Assembly: GCF_001597735.1 (NCBI RefSeq) | Contig: NZ_LUTS01000013.1 | Location: 1-60,189, forward strand | Direction: 5' to 3' | DNA: 60,189 bases | DNA from: Neptuniibacter pectenicola | GTDB taxonomy: Bacteria > Pseudomonadota > Gammaproteobacteria > Pseudomonadales > Balneatricaceae | Shown here: positions 12,891 to 37,805 of the stretch, piece after piece | Layout of the letters: each line of letters starts with the position of its first letter | Position numbering within the stretch: the first letter of the stretch is position 1 | The notes under the pieces: model-generated | Seen by the model: the letters and a program-made list of their open reading frames with translations, nothing else | Told to the model about the DNA's origin: nothing | Database searches by the model: none | Program-made: the position numbers and the translations under genes

Positions 12891-12977
12891 GCCCAAGTGG
12901 TGGAATTGGTAGACACGCTATCTTGAGGGGGTAGTGGCCGTCAGGCCGTGCCGGTTCAAGTCCGGCCTTGGGCACCA
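12891..12977 (+). tRNA. tRNA-Leu (anticodon GAG)
   Basis: An 87-nt class II tRNA: acceptor GCCCAAG pairs with CTTGGGC, the anticodon loop holds GAG, there is a long variable arm (GTGGCCGTCAGGCCGT region), a GGTTCAAGTCC T-arm and encoded CCA. It lies between secG and the initiator tRNA, as in Pseudomonas. Confidence 0.97.
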
Positions 12978-13027: not shown

Positions 13028-13104
<77 letters not shown>

Positions 13105-19281: not shown

Positions 19282-19378
19282 GGCTGATCAAATAGAATTT
19301 TTTAGGTGTCAAACGAGGCCTAAATTATGTGGCGTTGTACTGAAAATATGCTCGGTGCATCGTTTCTTTTAAATCCGG

Positions 19379-19395
19379 CGACTGCGTAACAGTCG
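19379..19395 (+). promoter_or_regulatory. Hairpin in rpsO leader
   Basis: CGACTG (19379-19384) pairs with CAGTCG (19390-19395) around CGTAA, ending 27 bases before the rpsO ATG. S15 represses its own mRNA through leader structures in several bacteria; this may be part of such an element, but the pseudoknot could not be shown. Confidence 0.35.
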
Positions 19396-19421
19396 TGTGC
19401 ATATTTTTTAGGAGAAGTAAC

Positions 19422-19691
19422 ATGGCATTAACTGCTGAGAAAAAAGCGGCGATCGTTACAGATTTCGCTCGCGCTGAAGGCGATACTGGTTCCCCAGAAG
19501 TTCAGGTAGCATTGCTAACTGCTAACATCGAAGGTTTACAGGACCACTTCAAAGTGAACAAGCATGACCATCACTCACGTCGCGGTCTAATCCGCATGGT
19601 AAACCAGCGTCGTAAGCTGCTGGATTACTTGAAAGGTAAAGATGCAGATCGTTACCTAGAGTTGATCAAGCGTCTAGGTCTACGTCGCTAA
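19422..19691 (+). CDS. rpsO: 30S ribosomal protein S15
   Basis: 89-residue primary 16S rRNA-binding protein. The ATG at 19422 ([12 protein letters not shown]) has AGGAG upstream; an ATG nine codons earlier adds an unrelated extension and was not used. The conserved [14 protein letters not shown] and HDHHSRRGL(I)[13 protein letters not shown] segments contact 16S rRNA. Placed between truB and pnp as in most gammaproteobacteria. Confidence 0.98.
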
Positions 19692-30771: not shown

Positions 30772-31257
30772 CTATATCTTTATCAGGCTGCCCATAGGAC
30801 ATGCTGTTAATAGTGCAGACAAAGGTAAGCCTTTTGGCGTAGTAAGGTTTGGGTCAATTTCCGCTAAGGGGTATAGAACGAAGCTACGTTCGTGCATATA
30901 AGGGTGTGGAACTTTAAGGCGTTCAGTATTTATGATCTGTTGATCATAAAGCAGAATATCGAGGTCGAGTGTCCTCGGCCCCCAATGTCGCTCCCGAATG
31001 CGTCGATGCTTTTGCTCTAACCCTTGCAGTTGGTCGAGCAAAGCCTCGGGGGGTAAGTCTGTTTCAATTTCTGCCACGGCATTAATAAAATCCGGTTGGT
31101 CTTGGGGGCCAACCGGTGCCGAGGCATATAAGGAGGATGCGGTAATTAGCGTGCAGTGATCGAGTGCCGCTAATTCGCTTAAGGCATTTGAAACCTGGCT
31201 TATGGGGTTGTCTAAATTACTTCCTAAGCCAATAAAACAACGAAATTTAGCTTTCAT
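30772..31257 (-). CDS. folK: 2-amino-4-hydroxy-6-hydroxymethyldihydropteridine pyrophosphokinase
   Basis: HPPK of folate synthesis. 161 residues: GLGSNLDNP, SSLYASAPVGPQDQPDFINAV, then the metal/ATP signature RERHWGPRTLDLDILLYD and VPHPYMHERSFVLYPLAEI. Its start overlaps the end of pcnB by 11 bases, indicating translational coupling. Confidence 0.96.
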   Translation of the reverse strand: MKAKFRCFIGLGSNLDNPISQVSNALSELAALDHCTLITASSLYASAPVGPQDQPDFINAVAEIETDLPPEALLDQLQGLEQKHRRIRERHWGPRTLDLDILLYDQQIINTERLKVPHPYMHERSFVLYPLAEIDPNLTTPKGLPLSALLTACPMGSLIKI

Positions 31258-32668
31258 TACCTGAACGTTCTTTTCTTGGCTTATTCGGTTTTTTACGACG
31301 AGAACGACGAGGTTTGTCGATCTTGTCTAAGCCGTTTAGCATCTCGCTTTGGGCTTCTGTGTTTGCATTCTGGAAATCGGTCCACCACTGGCTTAATCCG
31401 TCGAGCTGCTCTCCGCTGTTTTCTCGCAGTAGAAGTAGGTCGTAGGCGGCGCGGAATCTTGGCATCTCCATTAAGCGATGTGCCCGATGGCCTTGACGGC
31501 GAGGTAGACGTAACTGCATCTCCCAGATTTCACGAATCGGTGTAGAAAAGCGGCGCGGAATCGCTGTGGAGCGTACCTGTTCTGCAATCACTTGGTTTGC
31601 AGCTTCATGTAGCGCAGGTAGCGGTGGCATCTTTTGCTCTCGCATTAACTGTTGCATCCGTTTTTGCGTGGGATACCAAAGAATAGCGGCGAAAAGAAAG
31701 GCCGGGGTTACGCTTTTTCTTTGTGCAAGACGTCGGTCGGTATTTTTTAACGCATTCTCAATGAGTCGCTCAAGAGGCATATCTAAGTGAGGATCGTCTA
31801 ACAAGGTCTGGACCTGAGAGAAAATAGGTTCAAACAGTTCAAGGCGGCGTAGTTGTTGGTAAGACTGGAGTGCGTGGCCTGATTGGAAGAGCTTTAATGT
31901 CTCATCAAATAAGCGTGCAGGCGCTATACGTTTGAGCATAGGCGCTAATGCAGGGATTGGACGCTCAGACGCAGGCTCAATGGTGAAGTCTAGCTTAGCG
32001 GCAAAACGCGCAGCCCTCAGCATGCGAACAGGGTCCTCTTTGTAACGATCTTCAGGATCGCCAATCATACGAAGTACACCGTTCTTCAGGTCGTCAAAGC
32101 CGCTGGTAAAGTCATATACGCAATGGTCTTTAGGGCAATAATATAAAGCATTAACGGTGAAGTCTCGGCGTAGAGCGTCATCTTCAATGGTGCCATATAC
32201 GTTATCGCGCAGGATCATGCCGCTATCGCATTGCTCACCTGAGCCATCTTCTGGTTGGCTATCATGACTGGCTCTAAACGTTGCAACTTCTATTAGGTCA
32301 CGACCATAACGGACGTGAACAAGCTTAAAGCGACGCCCGATAAGTCGGCCCCGACGAAATAACTCGGCGGCTTCCTCTGGGTGAGCATTGGTTGCAACAT
32401 CAAAATCTTTAGGTTTTTTATTCAGCAGTAAGTCGCGTATGCAGCCACCGACGAGGAATCCGTCATAACCGGCATCTTGTAGACGATAGGCTACTTTTAA
32501 GGCGTTATCGTCTAGAAGCCGACGCGGAATTTTATGCTCTTCTTCTGATACTCTGTGCCGTTTGGCCTCGGTAATCATTGACGAGGGAGAGAGAGTGCCG
32601 TCATCGTTTTTAGAGTGTGGGTTGCTGCGGAATACTTTACCCAGCGCTTTGCTAATGGTTTTAAGCAA
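31247..32668 (-). CDS. pcnB: Poly(A) polymerase I
   Basis: Adds 3' poly(A) tails that promote RNA decay. The 473-residue protein has the class II nucleotidyltransferase core: GFLVGGCIRDLLL and catalytic Asp88/Asp90 in PKDFDVATNA, RRFKLVHV, then the RNA-binding body and a very basic C-terminal tail. The start is TTG (32668) with an AGG seven bases upstream; weak starts are also known for E. coli pcnB. A TTGAAA-N17-TATACC promoter lies at 32840-32812. Confidence 0.95.
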   Translation of the reverse strand: MLKTISKALGKVFRSNPHSKNDDGTLSPSSMITEAKRHRVSEEEHKIPRRLLDDNALKVAYRLQDAGYDGFLVGGCIRDLLLNKKPKDFDVATNAHPEEAAELFRRGRLIGRRFKLVHVRYGRDLIEVATFRASHDSQPEDGSGEQCDSGMILRDNVYGTIEDDALRRDFTVNALYYCPKDHCVYDFTSGFDDLKNGVLRMIGDPEDRYKEDPVRMLRAARFAAKLDFTIEPASERPIPALAPMLKRIAPARLFDETLKLFQSGHALQSYQQLRRLELFEPIFSQVQTLLDDPHLDMPLERLIENALKNTDRRLAQRKSVTPAFLFAAILWYPTQKRMQQLMREQKMPPLPALHEAANQVIAEQVRSTAIPRRFSTPIREIWEMQLRLPRRQGHRAHRLMEMPRFRAAYDLLLLRENSGEQLDGLSQWWTDFQNANTEAQSEMLNGLDKIDKPRRSRRKKPNKPRKERSGNES

Positions 32669-32775
32669 TGTGGTGCCTATTTTAGTACAAATTGAATAAT
32701 CTAATATGAGGGCCTACAGGCTAGGTGTATCTGAAGGATATTAAATCTTAACGATCCTTTTAGCCGTGTCCCTAT

Positions 32776-33086
32776 AAAAAAATCGGGTGCGCAATCATAT
32801 CATTGATAGAGGGTATAATGGGAGTATTAGGTGTTTTCAATTATAGAGTAAAACAAGAGGAGGGGATGGAATAGCTGACCGCATCTCAGGTAACAACGGC
32901 TATATGTGTTTCTTAGCTTGTTGTTATTTTTTCTAAGAGCCTTTTAGATCGTTACAACTTAGCTACGATCAGCTTTACTAAACCTCATTATTATTTTTAT
33001 TCGAGGCGGGTGCTTTTAAAATCTAATTCCAGTTTTTATTTTTATTAGTGGTCTAGTTTTTAAAGCGTGCTTCTTTTTGTTTTCGA
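32776..33086 (-). ncRNA. Predicted CrcZ-like Hfq/Crc-titrating small RNA
   Basis: Lies between cbrB and pcnB on the minus strand, where Pseudomonas encodes crcZ. It follows a -24/-12 promoter (start estimated near 33086). Four clusters of AAnAAnAA motifs are seen, reading down the minus strand: 33081-33071, 33046-33033, 33001-32988 and 32928-32918. The last (AATAACAACAA) sits in the loop of a TCTTAG/CTAAGA hairpin (32938-32911). Such motifs are the Hfq/Crc binding sites through which CrcZ relieves catabolite repression. The 3' end is uncertain: T7 at 32782-32776 has no strong stem, so the RNA may end elsewhere or run into pcnB. No protein frame is supported. The rest of the 617-bp gap is described under the neighbouring sites. 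Confidence 0.68.
32812..32840 (-). promoter_or_regulatory. Candidate sigma-70 promoter for pcnB
   Basis: On the minus strand TTGAAA (32840-32835), 17 bp, TATACC (32817-32812), about 145 bp ahead of pcnB. Confidence 0.4.
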
Positions 33087-33096
33087 ACTAATATAG

Positions 33097-33112
33097 TGCA
33101 TGACATGTGCCA
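33097..33112 (-). promoter_or_regulatory. Sigma-54 (-24/-12) promoter
   Basis: Minus strand TGGCAC-ATGTC-ATGCA (33112-33097) gives GG-N10-GC exactly and matches TGGCAC-N5-TTGCA at all but one position. CbrB, an NtrC-family activator, is encoded immediately upstream. Confidence 0.68.
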
Positions 33113-33139
33113 TGTTTTAAAAACCCTTTTAAAACATGG
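33110..33139. repeat. 13-bp inverted repeat overlapping the -24 box
   Basis: CCATGTTTTAAAA (33110-33122) and TTTTAAAACATGG (33127-33139) are perfect inverted repeats around ACCC. The outer end coincides with the TGG of the -24 element. It could be a cbrB 3' hairpin, a bend between enhancer and promoter, or an operator. Confidence 0.6.
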
Positions 33140-33183
33140 TGTTATTATTTTTGTGCTTTTGGATCACCTACTTTGGTACTGAT

Positions 33184-33267
33184 ATTGTTACTGGTTGTTA
33201 CGCTTAGGTGTTGCTGTGTGGGTAGTAAGGTAACACCTTGGTTGTTACCTTGTTGTTATGGTTGTTA
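33184..33267 (-). promoter_or_regulatory. Candidate CbrB enhancer: phased TAACAA/GTAACA array
   Basis: Five direct copies of TAACAA(C/T) on the minus strand at 33267, 33258, 33247, 33200 and 33190 (9-11 bp steps within groups), plus one TGTTAC in reverse at 33235-33230. AAGGTAACA/TGTTACCTT (33227-33251) is a 9-bp inverted repeat. It sits 100-180 bp upstream of the predicted RNA start, a normal enhancer distance. Confidence 0.5.
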
Positions 33268-33285
33268 GACTTTTATCTAATTGAA

Positions 33286-34686
33286 TTATAATAAGTTTGC
33301 TTGCTTTTTGCTTTTGCGTGGAATGCCTAATTTTTGACGGCGCTCCCATAAGCACTTTCGGCTTACCCCGAGTTTCTTCGCAAGCTCTGTTTCGCTAAGT
33401 TTGTCTTGATTTTCTATGACAAAACGTTGGAAATAATCGTCTAGGGATAAATTAGCTTGTTCTTCGGTGCTAAGCGTAGCGTCCGGTTCGGGGATGCGTG
33501 CGGCGAACTGTGTTTCCAGTTCATCAAGGGATGCTTTAGGTATGTCGAGGCCTAATACATCTAATGTGATCAGGGAGCCTTCGGCGAGAATAACCGCACG
33601 CTCAATGGCATTTTCTAATTCTCGCACATTGCCGGGCCAGCGGTAGGTGCTCATGGCCTGTCTAGCTTCGTGAGAGAAATGGTAGTTAGTGACGTTCATG
33701 CGTCGGCATGCATTAACCAGCATCTGATCGGCGATCTCTAAAATGTCTGAGTCACGCTCTCTTAATGGTGGAATGCGCAACTCCATAACATAAAGACGGT
33801 AGTAGAGGTCTTCTCGGAATTGGTTTTGTTTGGCCAGTTCTTTTAGGTTTCTATGGGTCGCTGCAATAAGGCGGACATCGACTTTCTTTGAATGAACTGA
33901 ACCTACGCGACGTATCTCACCTTCCTGAAGAAAACGTAACAAGCGAGCTTGCGCCTCAAGAGGAAGTTCACCAATCTCGTCGAGGAATAGGGTTCCACCA
34001 TCAGCGGCTTCGAGTAAGCCGCTGCGGCCAACATTAGCGCCGGTAAACGCGCCTTTTTCATGACCAAATAGTTCCGATTCAATTAAGCTTTCGGGTATGG
34101 CGGCACAGTTAACCGAGATCATGGGTATATGTGCGCGGTCGCTTTGCTCATGGATTGAGCGTGCGGCGAGCTCTTTACCGGTGCCAGATTCGCCTTGAAT
34201 GAGTACGGTTGCATGGGTGCGTGCGATTTTTGTAATGCGCTTGGCTAGCTCTTGCATAGCAGCGCAAGAACCTAAAATATGCGTTTGGCCGGCATTTGTG
34301 TTCGTTTGTAAGGTGTTAGCTTGGACGGGGTTGTTTGTTTTGCCGTCAAGAATGCTTCTAACGGCGAGGAGCATCTCGTCGTGATCAAAAGGTTTCGCTA
34401 TATAGTCAACCGCGCCTAGTTTCATCGCGTCCACTGCGGAGCGTAGGCTCGCATAGCTCGTCATAATGAGGACCGGTACGGATTTGGCCAGTTCGATAAG
34501 GTCGGTGCCTGGCGCACCCGGCAAGCGGAGGTCGCTAATGATGAGATTGAAATCTTCTAATTTAAAGCGACGGGTGGCTTCATCAACCGATGCGGCATCC
34601 TCCACTTCAAAGTTGTTTTTTTCGAGCAGCCTGCGTAATGCGGCTCGAATAATAGCTTCATCTTCTACAATCAGAATTCGACTCAT
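33286..34686 (-). CDS. cbrB: CbrB-type sigma-54-dependent response regulator
   Basis: 466-residue NtrC-family activator. Receiver domain about 1-115 with phospho-acceptor Asp52 and Lys98; AAA+ domain about 135-370 with GESGTGKE (165-172) and the sigma-54 contact GAFTGA (212-217); Fis-type HTH at the C-terminus ([24 protein letters not shown]). Its place between cbrA and pcnB identifies it as CbrB, which in Pseudomonas controls carbon/nitrogen source use largely by activating CrcZ. The start lies 22 bp after cbrA with AAGG upstream. Confidence 0.92.
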
Positions 34687-34708: not shown

Positions 34709-37642
34709 CTATCTCGCGCGGTCAGGATCTTCTGTCCATCTCAGGCGCGGGAGCGTTATTGCCACTTGAGTGCCTTTCTTCTGTTTGTTGTTGGCAGGGC
34801 TTAGTATCTCAATACTACCATAATGCTCTTCAATTATGTTATAGACTAATGATAGTCCTAAACCTGTCCCTTGGCCTGGGTCTTTTGTTGTAAAGAAGGG
34901 CTCAAATAGACGCTCTTTCGATTCGTCGGTTATGCCGCTGCCTTCATCGGTCACACGTAAAATGACGGTCTCTGTTGTTTCCTCGGCTTCCAGCCAGATT
35001 TTATCCTGATTTTTTGACGCGTCACTGGCATTTTGTAACAGGTTAACAAACACTTGATGCATCTGCTGAGGGTCTCCGACAATTCTTAAGTTGTCGGGGA
35101 TCTGGTTGATGTACTGTAAATGCTTACCGTGACTGTCCAGTGAGAGGAGGTGGATCGCTTCTTCTGCGCACTGGGCGAGGGAAACAGGGAGTTGCTCACG
35201 GTCGGCTTCTGGTCGTCCAGCATGAGCGAAACGTACCAGTGATTGTACTATGCGGCTGATACGCTTAGTTTGATCAACGATCTGATCACCGGTTTCCAAA
35301 ATGTAAGGGTTGTCTGTTTCGAGTTTTAAATTTTGCGCTAAGCAGGCGATCCCGGTAACAGGGTTACCTATCTCATGGGCAACACCGGCAGCAAAGCGCC
35401 CAATGGAGGCTAAGCGTTCATTATGGGCGAGCTTGTCTTGCATGTTTTTGGTGTCGGTGTCATTTTCCAAAAGAATAACCATGCCTATATCTCTACGCTC
35501 TTTAAGAATAGATTTATGGAGGCTAAACCAATGGGTGTGCCCATCAATAATAAGTTTTTGTCCTAGCTGGTGGTCTATAGGCGCGTCAACAAACTGTTCG
35601 AGCACTTCGCTCCACGGGTTGCTGTTACTGCTTAGGGCACTGCCGATCACCTCTTCGTTGAGTATATGGGTTAAACGCTCCATCTCATGGTTCCAGAATA
35701 GTACCTGACCTTCCGTATCTAAGGTGCAGACACCTATCGGTAGTTTTTGCAGTGTTAAACGGTGATAGCGTCGCATCTCATCAAGTTCAGCAGCAAGGCC
35801 TGTGAGCTGTAATTGATAGTCTTCCAATTGATTTTCAATTAAGTGCACATTACTGGCTTTGAAACCGACCCCCATAGGGTCTGCTGGACGGTCAATCGGC
35901 TCCAGTAAAGCCGCGGCCTCTACTGGGCCTAGCAGGCCTGAGAGGTTGTTTTCTAACATTGCTCTTAAGCGCAGTAGGTCAACGGGGCGAATACTGTCTG
36001 GATGAATGTTCATGCTATCCAGCGCTTGCTGAACTTCTCTCTCTGCTGCTTTTCGCCCCAGTCTAGATGCGAGCATCTCGGTGAAATCGCTGATGCGTGA
36101 AGCGCGGAGGTTGGTTGTGTTTGTTTTTTGCAGCGCATTCATTAAGCAGGCTTGGGCCGCTTGGGATTCCTCGGATGATTGAGGCGTAAAGAGGGAAACA
36201 ATGGTCATAACTGCGGTGTTGACTAATAACGACAGGATGGCGATATGATCCCAGTTACTGTTATTGATATTGAACGGGAGTGTTTCTAGGGGTGATGCGC
36301 TCAATACAGGGATTAACATACTAAATAACCAGATTCCCATACCTGATATTAAACCCAGCAGTAGTCCCCAGCGGTTTGCGTGCTGCCAAAAAAGCGTAAC
36401 AAGCAATCCGGGTAAAAATTGCAAAAAGGCCACAATGGCGACGATGCCCATTTGATGAAGATCGAAGTGGTTACCTATCAGGCGGTAAAAGAGATAACTG
36501 CCTAAGATCATCGCCATAATTAGAATACGTCTTAGCCAGAGTAAACGTGCATAAAAGCGAGACGTTTTAGGTTTTGGGATAAGCGGTAAAATGACATGGT
36601 TTTGCAGCATGGAGGCGAGCGCAACGGTGGCGACAATCATGATGCCACTGGCTGCCGATAGCCCACCAATAAAGGCGATGACGGTTAACCAAGAGGAGTC
36701 CAGCATCAATCCTATGTTTAAGATGATGAACTGCGGGTCGCCACCTACGTTTAAGGATTGGCCCGCCCAAATAATCGGTGGTACGGAACAGGCGAGTAAG
36801 AGTAAGAAAAGGGGCATCGCCCAGGTCGCTTTATAGAGCGTTTCATCTGAGGAATTTTCAGTAAACAGCATGTGAAAGGTATGGGGCATGACAATTGTGG
36901 CAGCAAAAAACGCCAATATGAGCGTACGCCAAGCTTCACTATTAACGGGTGTTTTTAGCTGCTCGACAATCTCAGGGTGTTGGGTGATAAAGCTTCCTGT
37001 TTCGCCGATGCCGCCGAGAATGCCAAAAATGGCGAAGCCCGCAATGATGAGCAGCGCGCTCAGCTTTATGACGGACTCAACTGCCATCGCCACCATTAAA
37101 CCACGATGATTGGTTCTGAGTGAGGCATGCCTGGCACCAAATAAAATCGAGAAGAGGGCGATAATAAAACAGAATCCAACGCTGATCTGGTCAGCACTGA
37201 ATTGATCGTTAAGGATGTACAGTGTATCGGACACGGCCTGTATCTGTATGGACAGCATAGGCAGAGTGGCGAAGACGGAAATCAACGCAGTAAGGGTACC
37301 AACCGATCCGCTTCTAAACCGGAAGGCAAATAGATCGGGCAGTGAACTTAATTGATATGTGCGCGTGATACGTAGAATAGGAATTAATAACGCCGGTGCT
37401 AATAGAAAGGTCAGTACGGGGCCGAAGTAAGAGCCGAAAAAGCTGTATCCCGACTCTTTGGCTAGGCTGAATGCGCCGTAGAATGTCCAAACACTGGCGT
37501 ATACACCGATCGAAAGTACATGGGTTAGAGGGTGACGAACAAGTTTTTTAGGCAGTACGCCACGTTCTGTTAAATAGGCGGTCCCAAATAAAAACAGGAG
37601 GTAAGCAACGCCGATCAATATCAGTGACGGTAAGCTAAACAT
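34709..37642 (-). CDS. cbrA: CbrA-type transporter-sensor histidine kinase
   Basis: About 977 residues. An SLC5/sodium-solute-symporter-like domain with about 13 membrane helices (to about 500) is followed by a STAC-type linker, a PAS domain (LQKLPIGVCTLDTEGQVLFWNHEM), HisKA with phospho-acceptor His756 (AAGVAHEIGNP) and HATPase_c (N box NLLQNASDA, DEGSGI, GQGTGLGLSL). CbrA of Pseudomonas has this same unusual architecture and size. The ATG at 37642 (MFSLPSLILIG) has AGAGGG nine bases upstream; an upstream TTG adds six residues. It overlaps the small cbrX-like gene by eight bases. Confidence 0.93.
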   Translation of the reverse strand: MFSLPSLILIGVAYLLFLFGTAYLTERGVLPKKLVRHPLTHVLSIGVYASVWTFYGAFSLAKESGYSFFGSYFGPVLTFLLAPALLIPILRITRTYQLSSLPDLFAFRFRSGSVGTLTALISVFATLPMLSIQIQAVSDTLYILNDQFSADQISVGFCFIIALFSILFGARHASLRTNHRGLMVAMAVESVIKLSALLIIAGFAIFGILGGIGETGSFITQHPEIVEQLKTPVNSEAWRTLILAFFAATIVMPHTFHMLFTENSSDETLYKATWAMPLFLLLLACSVPPIIWAGQSLNVGGDPQFIILNIGLMLDSSWLTVIAFIGGLSAASGIMIVATVALASMLQNHVILPLIPKPKTSRFYARLLWLRRILIMAMILGSYLFYRLIGNHFDLHQMGIVAIVAFLQFLPGLLVTLFWQHANRWGLLLGLISGMGIWLFSMLIPVLSASPLETLPFNINNSNWDHIAILSLLVNTAVMTIVSLFTPQSSEESQAAQACLMNALQKTNTTNLRASRISDFTEMLASRLGRKAAEREVQQALDSMNIHPDSIRPVDLLRLRAMLENNLSGLLGPVEAAALLEPIDRPADPMGVGFKASNVHLIENQLEDYQLQLTGLAAELDEMRRYHRLTLQKLPIGVCTLDTEGQVLFWNHEMERLTHILNEEVIGSALSSNSNPWSEVLEQFVDAPIDHQLGQKLIIDGHTHWFSLHKSILKERRDIGMVILLENDTDTKNMQDKLAHNERLASIGRFAAGVAHEIGNPVTGIACLAQNLKLETDNPYILETGDQIVDQTKRISRIVQSLVRFAHAGRPEADREQLPVSLAQCAEEAIHLLSLDSHGKHLQYINQIPDNLRIVGDPQQMHQVFVNLLQNASDASKNQDKIWLEAEETTETVILRVTDEGSGITDESKERLFEPFFTTKDPGQGTGLGLSLVYNIIEEHYGSIEILSPANNKQKKGTQVAITLPRLRWTEDPDRAR

Positions 37643-37805
37643 CGGTGCGTTCCCTCTCAACCAAAAAAGCGATCAATATGATGGCTAGCCAAATAATGTA
37701 AGGGAGGTACCACGGTGCATCGATACTTTGCCAGCTATCGATGACCAGTGGGACAACTAAATAAAGCATGAGAATAAGCAGTATCAGTAATCGATGAAAA
37801 TACAT
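37635..37805 (-). CDS. cbrX: Small membrane protein CbrX
   Basis: 56 residues, too short for most gene callers. It begins MYFHRLLILLILMLYLVVPL, then DSWQSIDAPWYLPYIIW, then a second hydrophobic stretch and a charged end (ERERTDV): two membrane segments with a short loop. It starts three bases after the gluQ stop, with TAGG as ribosome site, and its TAG overlaps the cbrA ATG by eight bases. A small ORF called cbrX occupies this position in Pseudomonas and is translationally coupled to cbrA; function there is little known. Confidence 0.82.
   Translation of the reverse strand: MYFHRLLILLILMLYLVVPLVIDSWQSIDAPWYLPYIIWLAIILIAFLVERERTDV

Follow-up and report, generated by a model that had tools for sequence, protein, structure and literature searches.

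The 617-nt gap between cbrB and pcnB on the minus strand of the window, by which we mean the whole 60,189-nt stretch of DNA from Neptuniibacter pectenicola that was analysed, very likely encodes a CrcZ-like RNA of about 217 nt, which would be driven by CbrB and RpoN, act as a decoy for Hfq and relieve catabolite repression. CrcZ-type Hfq decoys are probably ancient and belong to the order as a whole and not to Pseudomonas in particular, and in at least two lineages of the window's family the RNA seems to have outlived its regulator, together with Crc and apparently under a promoter of the sigma-70 type. The reading as a CrcZ-type decoy is preferred because gene order, promoter, CbrB hexamers, A-rich motifs and the presence of Hfq and Crc are all consistent with it; this agreement, and the arrangement being common across 122 cbrB loci, support the first-pass annotation of this DNA, in which such a decoy had been proposed. 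Transcription of the RNA, its dependence on CbrB and RpoN, binding by Hfq and effects on targets are what we infer from the sequence.

On the minus strand of the window, the genes follow each other in the order gluQ, cbrA, cbrB, the gap, pcnB, folK, panB and panC. In the open reading frame list, the sensor kinase gene (34709..37660, 983 aa) codes for a protein with histidine kinase and PAS domains; a Pfam search at E<=1e-5 scored only these and no SLC5 transporter domain, and as such a domain would be expected for CbrA, the name cbrA is given from position and size. It adjoins cbrB (33286..34686, 466 aa), the product of which has the receiver and AAA+ domains of a sigma-54 response regulator and matches CbrB of Pseudomonas fildesensis at 63%. 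The gap extends from the cbrB stop to the pcnB start (33285-32669), and the poly(A) polymerase gene pcnB (31247..32668) is assigned by TIGR01942 with 512.6 bits, above the cut-off. All of this is on the same strand, and the position between cbrB and pcnB that had been claimed for the RNA is thus borne out. An order of cbrA, cbrB and crcZ is described as conserved in Pseudomonas and Azotobacter (PMC8871633, excerpt). In all four genomes of family f21, which matches Rfam CrcZ at E ~1e-90, pcnB comes next, and the order in the window is identical.

Inside the gap, a -24/-12 promoter, TGGCACATGTCATGCA, lies at 33112-33097 (minus strand) with GG and GC correctly spaced, and is present in 10 of 10 aligned genus members; it fits the sigma-54 consensus, and the transcript start predicted from it is near 33086, in line with the promoter and the start at 33086 of the first-pass annotation. 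That annotation did not mention the CbrB hexamers, of which the gap carries four exact copies on the minus strand: one TGTTAC (F-type subsite, 33230..33235) and three GTAACA (R-type), one of these at 33243..33248 and two within 33186..33201 (33201-33196 and 33191-33186). Relative to the promoter start, TGTTAC is at -123 and the GTAACA copies are at -136, -89 and -79; the one at 33243..33248 is lost in some genus members, and the other three hexamers are found in 10 of 10 aligned members. The TGTTAC/GTAACA consensus for CbrB subsites comes from P. putida (PMC6296734, excerpt). A near-perfect palindrome at 33142-33107 overlaps the -24 element, and there an A/T-rich block, TGTTTTAAAAGG...TTTTAAAA, is partly conserved in the genus.

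Downstream of the promoter, the RNA strand carries four A-rich motifs: (ARN)4 near the 5' end (33070..33081, with the AAnAAnAA cluster 33081-33071), (ARN)5 at 33046-33032 (cluster 33046-33033), a second (ARN)5 at 33001-32987 (cluster 33001-32988) and (ARN)6 at 32934-32917 (cluster 32931-32918). The four clusters listed in the first-pass annotation are all present, three of them as given, and only the fourth needed correction, its start having been set 3 nt late. For CrcZ of P. aeruginosa, six (ARN)n stretches are given, with n of at least 4 as the counted size (PMC4063720, excerpt). With 13 AAnAAnAA in 300 nt, the motif density here is the maximum of the window on either strand (the runner-up has 6), and among 17 sigma-54-like sites in the window (score of at least 9/12) only the TGGCACATGTCATGCA site is followed by more than two AAnAAnAA. 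None of 5000 dinucleotide-shuffled gaps had at least 11 motifs in the RNA part, a promoter of equal score occurred in 0.48% of them, and at least four CbrB hexamers upstream in 0.12%; in the strictest, local shuffle, the already A-rich first 200 nt of the RNA have 11 motifs against 3.0 expected (P = 0.0046). Motifs and promoter together are thus more than chance, as follows from the density in the window, the lone motif-followed site and the shuffles. It is hardly credible that the gap is nothing but A-rich intergenic DNA in which a promoter-like site arose by accident: the gap is indeed A-rich and the local shuffle gives no smaller P than the one named, but against chance stand the conservation in 96 of 122 genomes without antisense matches, the footprint within the genus and the covariation.

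The predicted non-coding RNA extends over 32870..33086 (minus strand), as judged from the genus alignment, the covariance model R1 and pair counts, and its 3' end is approximate, because no U-tailed intrinsic terminator was found on the RNA strand. Its longest sense stretch without a stop is 24 aa, and ten genus members can be aligned across enhancer, promoter and RNA as far as the closing stem. In the 239-nt fold of the window RNA (z = -2.47), hairpin 1 (33012..33066) holds motif 2 in its loop, hairpin 2 (32982..33007, GCCUC/GAGGU) holds motif 3 in its loop, and a long closing stem (32873..32974) bears an apical hairpin (32938-32911) with motif 4 in its loop; these hairpins, which display three of the A-rich motifs, were absent from the earlier annotation. 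When 23 family sequences were scored on the structure drawn from the window's own fold, 100% of cells were paired in hairpin 2, 95.0% in the apical helix, 91.2% in the long closing stem and 70.5% in hairpin 1, which is the least certain of the three hairpins, and a small helix within the closing stem is unsupported with 28.8%. Over these 23 sequences, 81.5% of cells are paired versus 76.6 in shuffles, and cells changed on both sides number 81 versus 37.5 in shuffles (0/500; slid versions 12-36); further pair types are no better than in shuffles (51 versus 49.2, 148/500). The model R1 was built from 23 sequences, all of the window's family and the window included. In the window's own genome it finds one strong copy with 195.6 bits, which is a training sequence, and the next match has an E of 3; it matches 99 of 116 family genomes, among them the 23 training sequences, which match by construction, and five CbrB-bearing genomes of the family have no R1 match (G178, G249, G250, G252 and G255).

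The RNA is CrcZ-like by position and design and not by sequence, since the Rfam CrcZ model (RF01675) fails to recognise the gap: with the gathering scores as cut-off the whole window gave no CrcZ, and a search of 32500-33400 gave no match at E<=10, so that the Infernal check proposed with the first-pass annotation turned out negative. The window RNA is therefore classed as CrcZ-like, outside RF01675. Elsewhere in the window, Rfam searches gave an S15 leader (19361-19478, plus strand) and two tRNAs (12891-12974 and 13028-13101). Among 145 genomes of the order, RF01675 matches 33 at E<=0.01, the window's own genome not included, and exceeds the gathering score in 7, all of families f2 and f21, with four f21 genomes at E ~1e-87 to 1e-94. 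By hand comparison of places, 29 of the 33 genomes have a match within ~900 nt behind cbrB, in 14 families; the exceptions are G001, where the cbrB contig ends, G007, G066 and G116. At named loci the model gives 1.5e-97 in P. fildesensis, 6.6e-75 in S. gallinarum, 5.1e-6 in G. gilvus and 0.054 in L. anticariensis, and no match at E<=0.5 in five other named loci, Halomonas maura among them. The sequence of the RNA drifts fast, and position, promoter, enhancer and A-rich motif persist. Ten of the 145 genomes have an R1 match at E<=0.01, and half of these ten lie outside the window's family: in G075 and G062 the match is behind cbrB, where RF01675 also matches weakly, and in G006, G007 and G049 it is elsewhere. 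A homology to Pseudomonas by one single model had to be rejected, as R1 misses the Pseudomonas-type genomes at E<=0.01. With no one model scoring both ends, the link to Pseudomonas rests on position, promoter, enhancer and the weak matches of RF01675.

For the wider comparison, the order was taken to be GTDB Pseudomonadales and sampled with 145 genomes, the window's own included, of which 124 have a CbrB match at E<=1e-100; 122 of these cbrB regions were counted, G001 and G027 with less than 500 nt being left out. A module was defined as a sigma-54 site (at least 9/12) followed by at least four AAnAAnAA within 300 nt. Such a module is found behind cbrB in 96 of 122 genomes and in 37 of 43 families, the own genome included, but in 0 of 122 on the antisense strand and in a mean of 0.1 of 122 in ten rounds of shuffling; pcnB follows within ~1.5 kb in 83 of the 96 (tblastn). 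The occurrence outside Pseudomonas that had been claimed is thereby confirmed, and it extends far beyond the families with matches above Rfam's CrcZ cut-off. By the same definition, 26 of 122 cbrB loci have no module. Among them, family f43 (G043, G080, G109 and G136) has 8-11 A-rich motifs and CbrB-type hexamers and no standard -24/-12 site, nor does any of the four match Crc at E<=1e-20 (G136 by elimination), and G125, G013 and G006 have at least 10 motifs with the promoter match weak or missing; other module-less families include f8, f9, f18 and f42. Of nine named CbrB loci of high identity (60-65%, L129-L137), seven carry the module, namely those of Pseudomonas fildesensis, Serpens gallinarum, Gilvimarinus agarilyticus, Gilvimarinus gilvus, Litchfieldella anticariensis, Halomonas maura and a Cellvibrionaceae MAG, and two do not, L130 with 334 nt readable and L133, an uncultured Pseudomonadaceae contig. 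In the 71 remaining loci of the same scan, which belong to other sigma-54 regulators (456 kb, both strands), there is a single module match, in L192. An outgroup of 25 CbrB-like loci, obtained at E<=1e-110 in a search of 274 genomes from other orders of the class, showed the module in 0 of 25 and pcnB nearby in 0 of 25 (about 1.5 kb read, in one case 0.8 kb), and therefore the RNA goes with the order and not with CbrB-like proteins generally.

The CbrB hexamers are conserved along with the module. In the 90 of 96 module loci with enough upstream sequence, exact hexamers have a mean of 2.61 against 0.17 in shuffles, and 79 of the 90 have at least two. TGTTAC stands at -126..-119 in 36 loci, GTAACA at -106..-98 in 32 and at -84..-76 in 46, and at least one of these three bands (near -123, -102 and -80), which were picked after the hexamer positions had been seen, is occupied in 67 of 90. 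In the four f21 genomes, TGTTAC lies at -124 or -125, and GTAACA falls between -102 and -104. In P. fildesensis, Rfam sRNA P36 (RF01679) matches between cbrB and crcZ (L129:4477-4537), spanning the CbrB-type hexamers TGTTAC (4482) and GTAACA (4502); P36 there may be the enhancer palindrome and not an RNA.

As the element lies upstream of pcnB on the same strand with no intrinsic terminator found in between, it could also be a CbrB-controlled long 5' leader of pcnB, with any decoy effect secondary or absent. This is unlikely, even if in G007, the sole f8 genome followed (L261), where cbrB and pcnB are on separate contigs, a module immediately precedes a pcnB homologue (53% identity). In the window's genus, a conserved block at 32786..32809 (minus strand, from the genus alignment) with the hexamer TATGAT (32799-32794) separates the RNA from pcnB, and it is possible that this is pcnB's own promoter, although the promoter scan did not find it. 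Also two promoter-plus-motif units within 1100 nt, as they occur in 18 of 122 genomes and at least 300 nt apart in 14 of those, do not fit a leader, and neither do the units that two genomes of genus g95 carry away from cbrB (G171, L326, and G176, L327). A further unit away from cbrB is found in G049 (L262), and in L326 and L262 two units are in tandem. Several families finally show, by eye, a T-tailed G+C hairpin past the motifs, which likewise argues against a leader. A ACCTGGATGGGG-like 3' element, followed by a C-rich partner, was seen by eye, with variants and in one genome per family, in f4, f11, f13, f24, f30, f31, f32, f40, f45 and f47, but not in the window's family; it is perhaps a terminator of the RNA. 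The conserved structured regions beyond the motifs could point to a classical Hfq-dependent sRNA that base-pairs with mRNAs and whose A-rich loops merely load Hfq, as ARN motifs are found in other Hfq ligands too. Such a function is very improbable, as by eye the A-rich motifs persist across families and the remaining sequence has changed almost wholly, and as several Hfq-sized sites together with duplications suggest a titration by dose.

In the window's family, the RNA was unexpectedly also found where cbrAB is missing from the locus. CbrB is present at E<=1e-100 in 92 of the 116 family genomes, and of the 24 without it (four by elimination), 12 match R1 at E<=0.001. One of these 12, G161, is 78% complete, and the other 11 all have a Crc match (64-82% identity). 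The order gluQ, RNA, pcnB without any cbrA or cbrB match was found in regions of 3.1-3.2 kb in G206, which belongs to the window's genus, and in G189, G190, G192 and G193 of genus g98; the absence covers this locus only (L319-L323 for G206, G190, G189, G192 and G193). In these five loci the TGGCAC site is gone and TGTTAC/GTAACA are absent from the 300 nt upstream. Where the sigma-54 site was, G206 has TTGCTA-18-TATAGT, and in g98 TTGAAT, TTGAAC or TTGAAA, 17 nt and TATAGT or TATATT take its place, each of these sigma-70-like matches being modest alone (equalled in 2 to 29 of 500 shuffles). G162 lacks CbrB, an R1 match and a Crc match, and this single co-loss is no trend. R1 matches of lower strength come from four g5 genomes (G131, also G236-G238; E 1.8e-6 to 8.3e-5). 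CbrB was not found in this genus, and in G131 the match is at another locus (L258:1922-2060), next to hslV- and hslU-like ORFs, with a pair of A-rich hairpins and one hairpin that resembles a terminator.

Both proteins that such a decoy would engage were looked for, as the first-pass annotation had advised, and found in the window's own genome. Its Hfq is identical to that of P. aeruginosa at 67 of 75 positions, with K31, which presumably matters for the distal face, kept, and with eight differences including Y25F, in which the aromatic ring is retained. A Y25D variant of P. aeruginosa Hfq is defective in CrcZ binding (PMC4063720, excerpt). The Crc candidate (G000:C127), encoded between pyrE and rph, has P. 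aeruginosa Crc as its best PDB match (4jg3, 270.6 bits), ahead of 2myi (third chain, 263.4 bits), deposited as exodeoxyribonuclease III but Crc-like in the residues named below, and the putative exodeoxyribonuclease 2jc5 (209.7 bits). The residues QEL, GDWN and SDHAP of 2jc5, which have a catalytic role, read QDL, GTTN and SEHAP in the candidate and QDT, GSLY and SQHAP in P. aeruginosa Crc, and a separate exonuclease-III-like protein is found in the genome (L003, read by eye). Across genomes, module and Crc-like match are weakly associated (91 of 96 module genomes versus 21 of 26 others, Fisher P = 0.035), in a count in which Crc matches include nuclease-like paralogues and 3 of the 23 genomes counted without Crc are assigned by elimination; with CA motifs alone, P is 1.0, and the association is not counted in favour of the decoy. 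In some genomes the module is present and a Crc match at E<=1e-20 is missing (G066, G098 and G126). A search of the own genome with the A-rich pattern, which lacks a proper control since the pattern is identical when reversed, gave 115 matches, of which 30 loci (26 distinct places) were read: a same-strand ORF start lies within -15..+44 nt in 6 of them and an opposite-strand one in 0 of 30, and a seventh such locus, pqqB, was noticed by eye where a contig ends. The A-rich runs at start codons suggest, and no more, an LldE/GlcF-like protein, pqqB, a sigma-54 activator, a FIST and a DUF1302 protein, among others, as candidate targets.

The RNA can be expected to work as follows. When the preferred carbon source runs short, CbrA would phosphorylate CbrB, and CbrB~P would bind the TGTTAC/GTAACA enhancer and activate the RpoN polymerase at 33112-33097. 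The four (ARN)4-6 stretches of the RNA, three of them in hairpin loops, would then hold Hfq by its distal face, probably in complex with Crc, and Hfq would be drawn off the A-rich translation starts of catabolic mRNAs, lifting the repression. For P. aeruginosa, Hfq titration by CrcZ has been shown (PMC4063720, excerpt).

CrcZ of Pseudomonas (RF01675, with the paralogues CrcY and CrcX) is like the window RNA in that it lies between cbrB and pcnB on their strand and has a sigma-54 promoter, TGTTAC/GTAACA hexamers and several (ARN)n of at least 4; some relatives also have tandem units. The window RNA differs in length, with ~217 nt against the 407 nt given for CrcZ (PMC4063720, excerpt), and has four A-rich stretches where CrcZ has six; three of the four lie in hairpin loops, in a fold that goes unrecognised by RF01675. 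The RsmY/RsmZ and CsrB decoys, which that paper compares with CrcZ, are likewise RNA sponges with repeated protein sites, but for a different protein, RsmA/CsrA. Their motif, GGA, differs as well. CrcZ/CrcY of Azotobacter vinelandii seem comparable in the CbrAB-linked catabolite repression via Crc-Hfq (PMC6292655, excerpt), but their host belongs to the Pseudomonadaceae, and the likeness is one by description and not by RNA sequence. An Hfq-bound RNA of A. baumannii, sRNA99/ABUWs076, has three A-rich motifs and is described as reminiscent of CrcZ (PMC12802169, PMC11472050, excerpts); that it is linked to the f27 loci, which have A-rich hairpins behind cbrB, is only a guess. As far as the available parts of the literature go, this RNA compared with CrcZ is the nearest published case outside the Pseudomonadaceae. 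According to a review of 2022 and a paper of 2018, CbrAB/CrcZ is found in Pseudomonas and Azotobacter only (PMC8871633, PMC6296734, excerpts), in the open literature no CrcZ outside the Pseudomonadaceae appeared in titles or the beginnings of abstracts among the matches listed, and the excerpts of two Acinetobacter papers (PMC8312277, PMC5295007) have CrcZ in the reference lists only.

A CrcZ-like RNA behind cbrB in the window's lineage, if true, contradicts the published restriction to Pseudomonas and Azotobacter. Catabolite control by an Hfq-sequestering RNA would then be spread over most of the sampled families of the order, Halomonas and Gilvimarinus included. The former are halophiles and the latter agar degraders, and the carbon hierarchy is little studied in such groups. 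If the RNA has indeed outlived its regulator, an A-rich hairpin RNA that titrates Hfq would amount to a module open to rewiring to other signals or to constitutive expression, and lineages in which the decoy is kept and the sensor lost would form a natural series on which the order of evolution could be tested, as well as whether Crc is needed.
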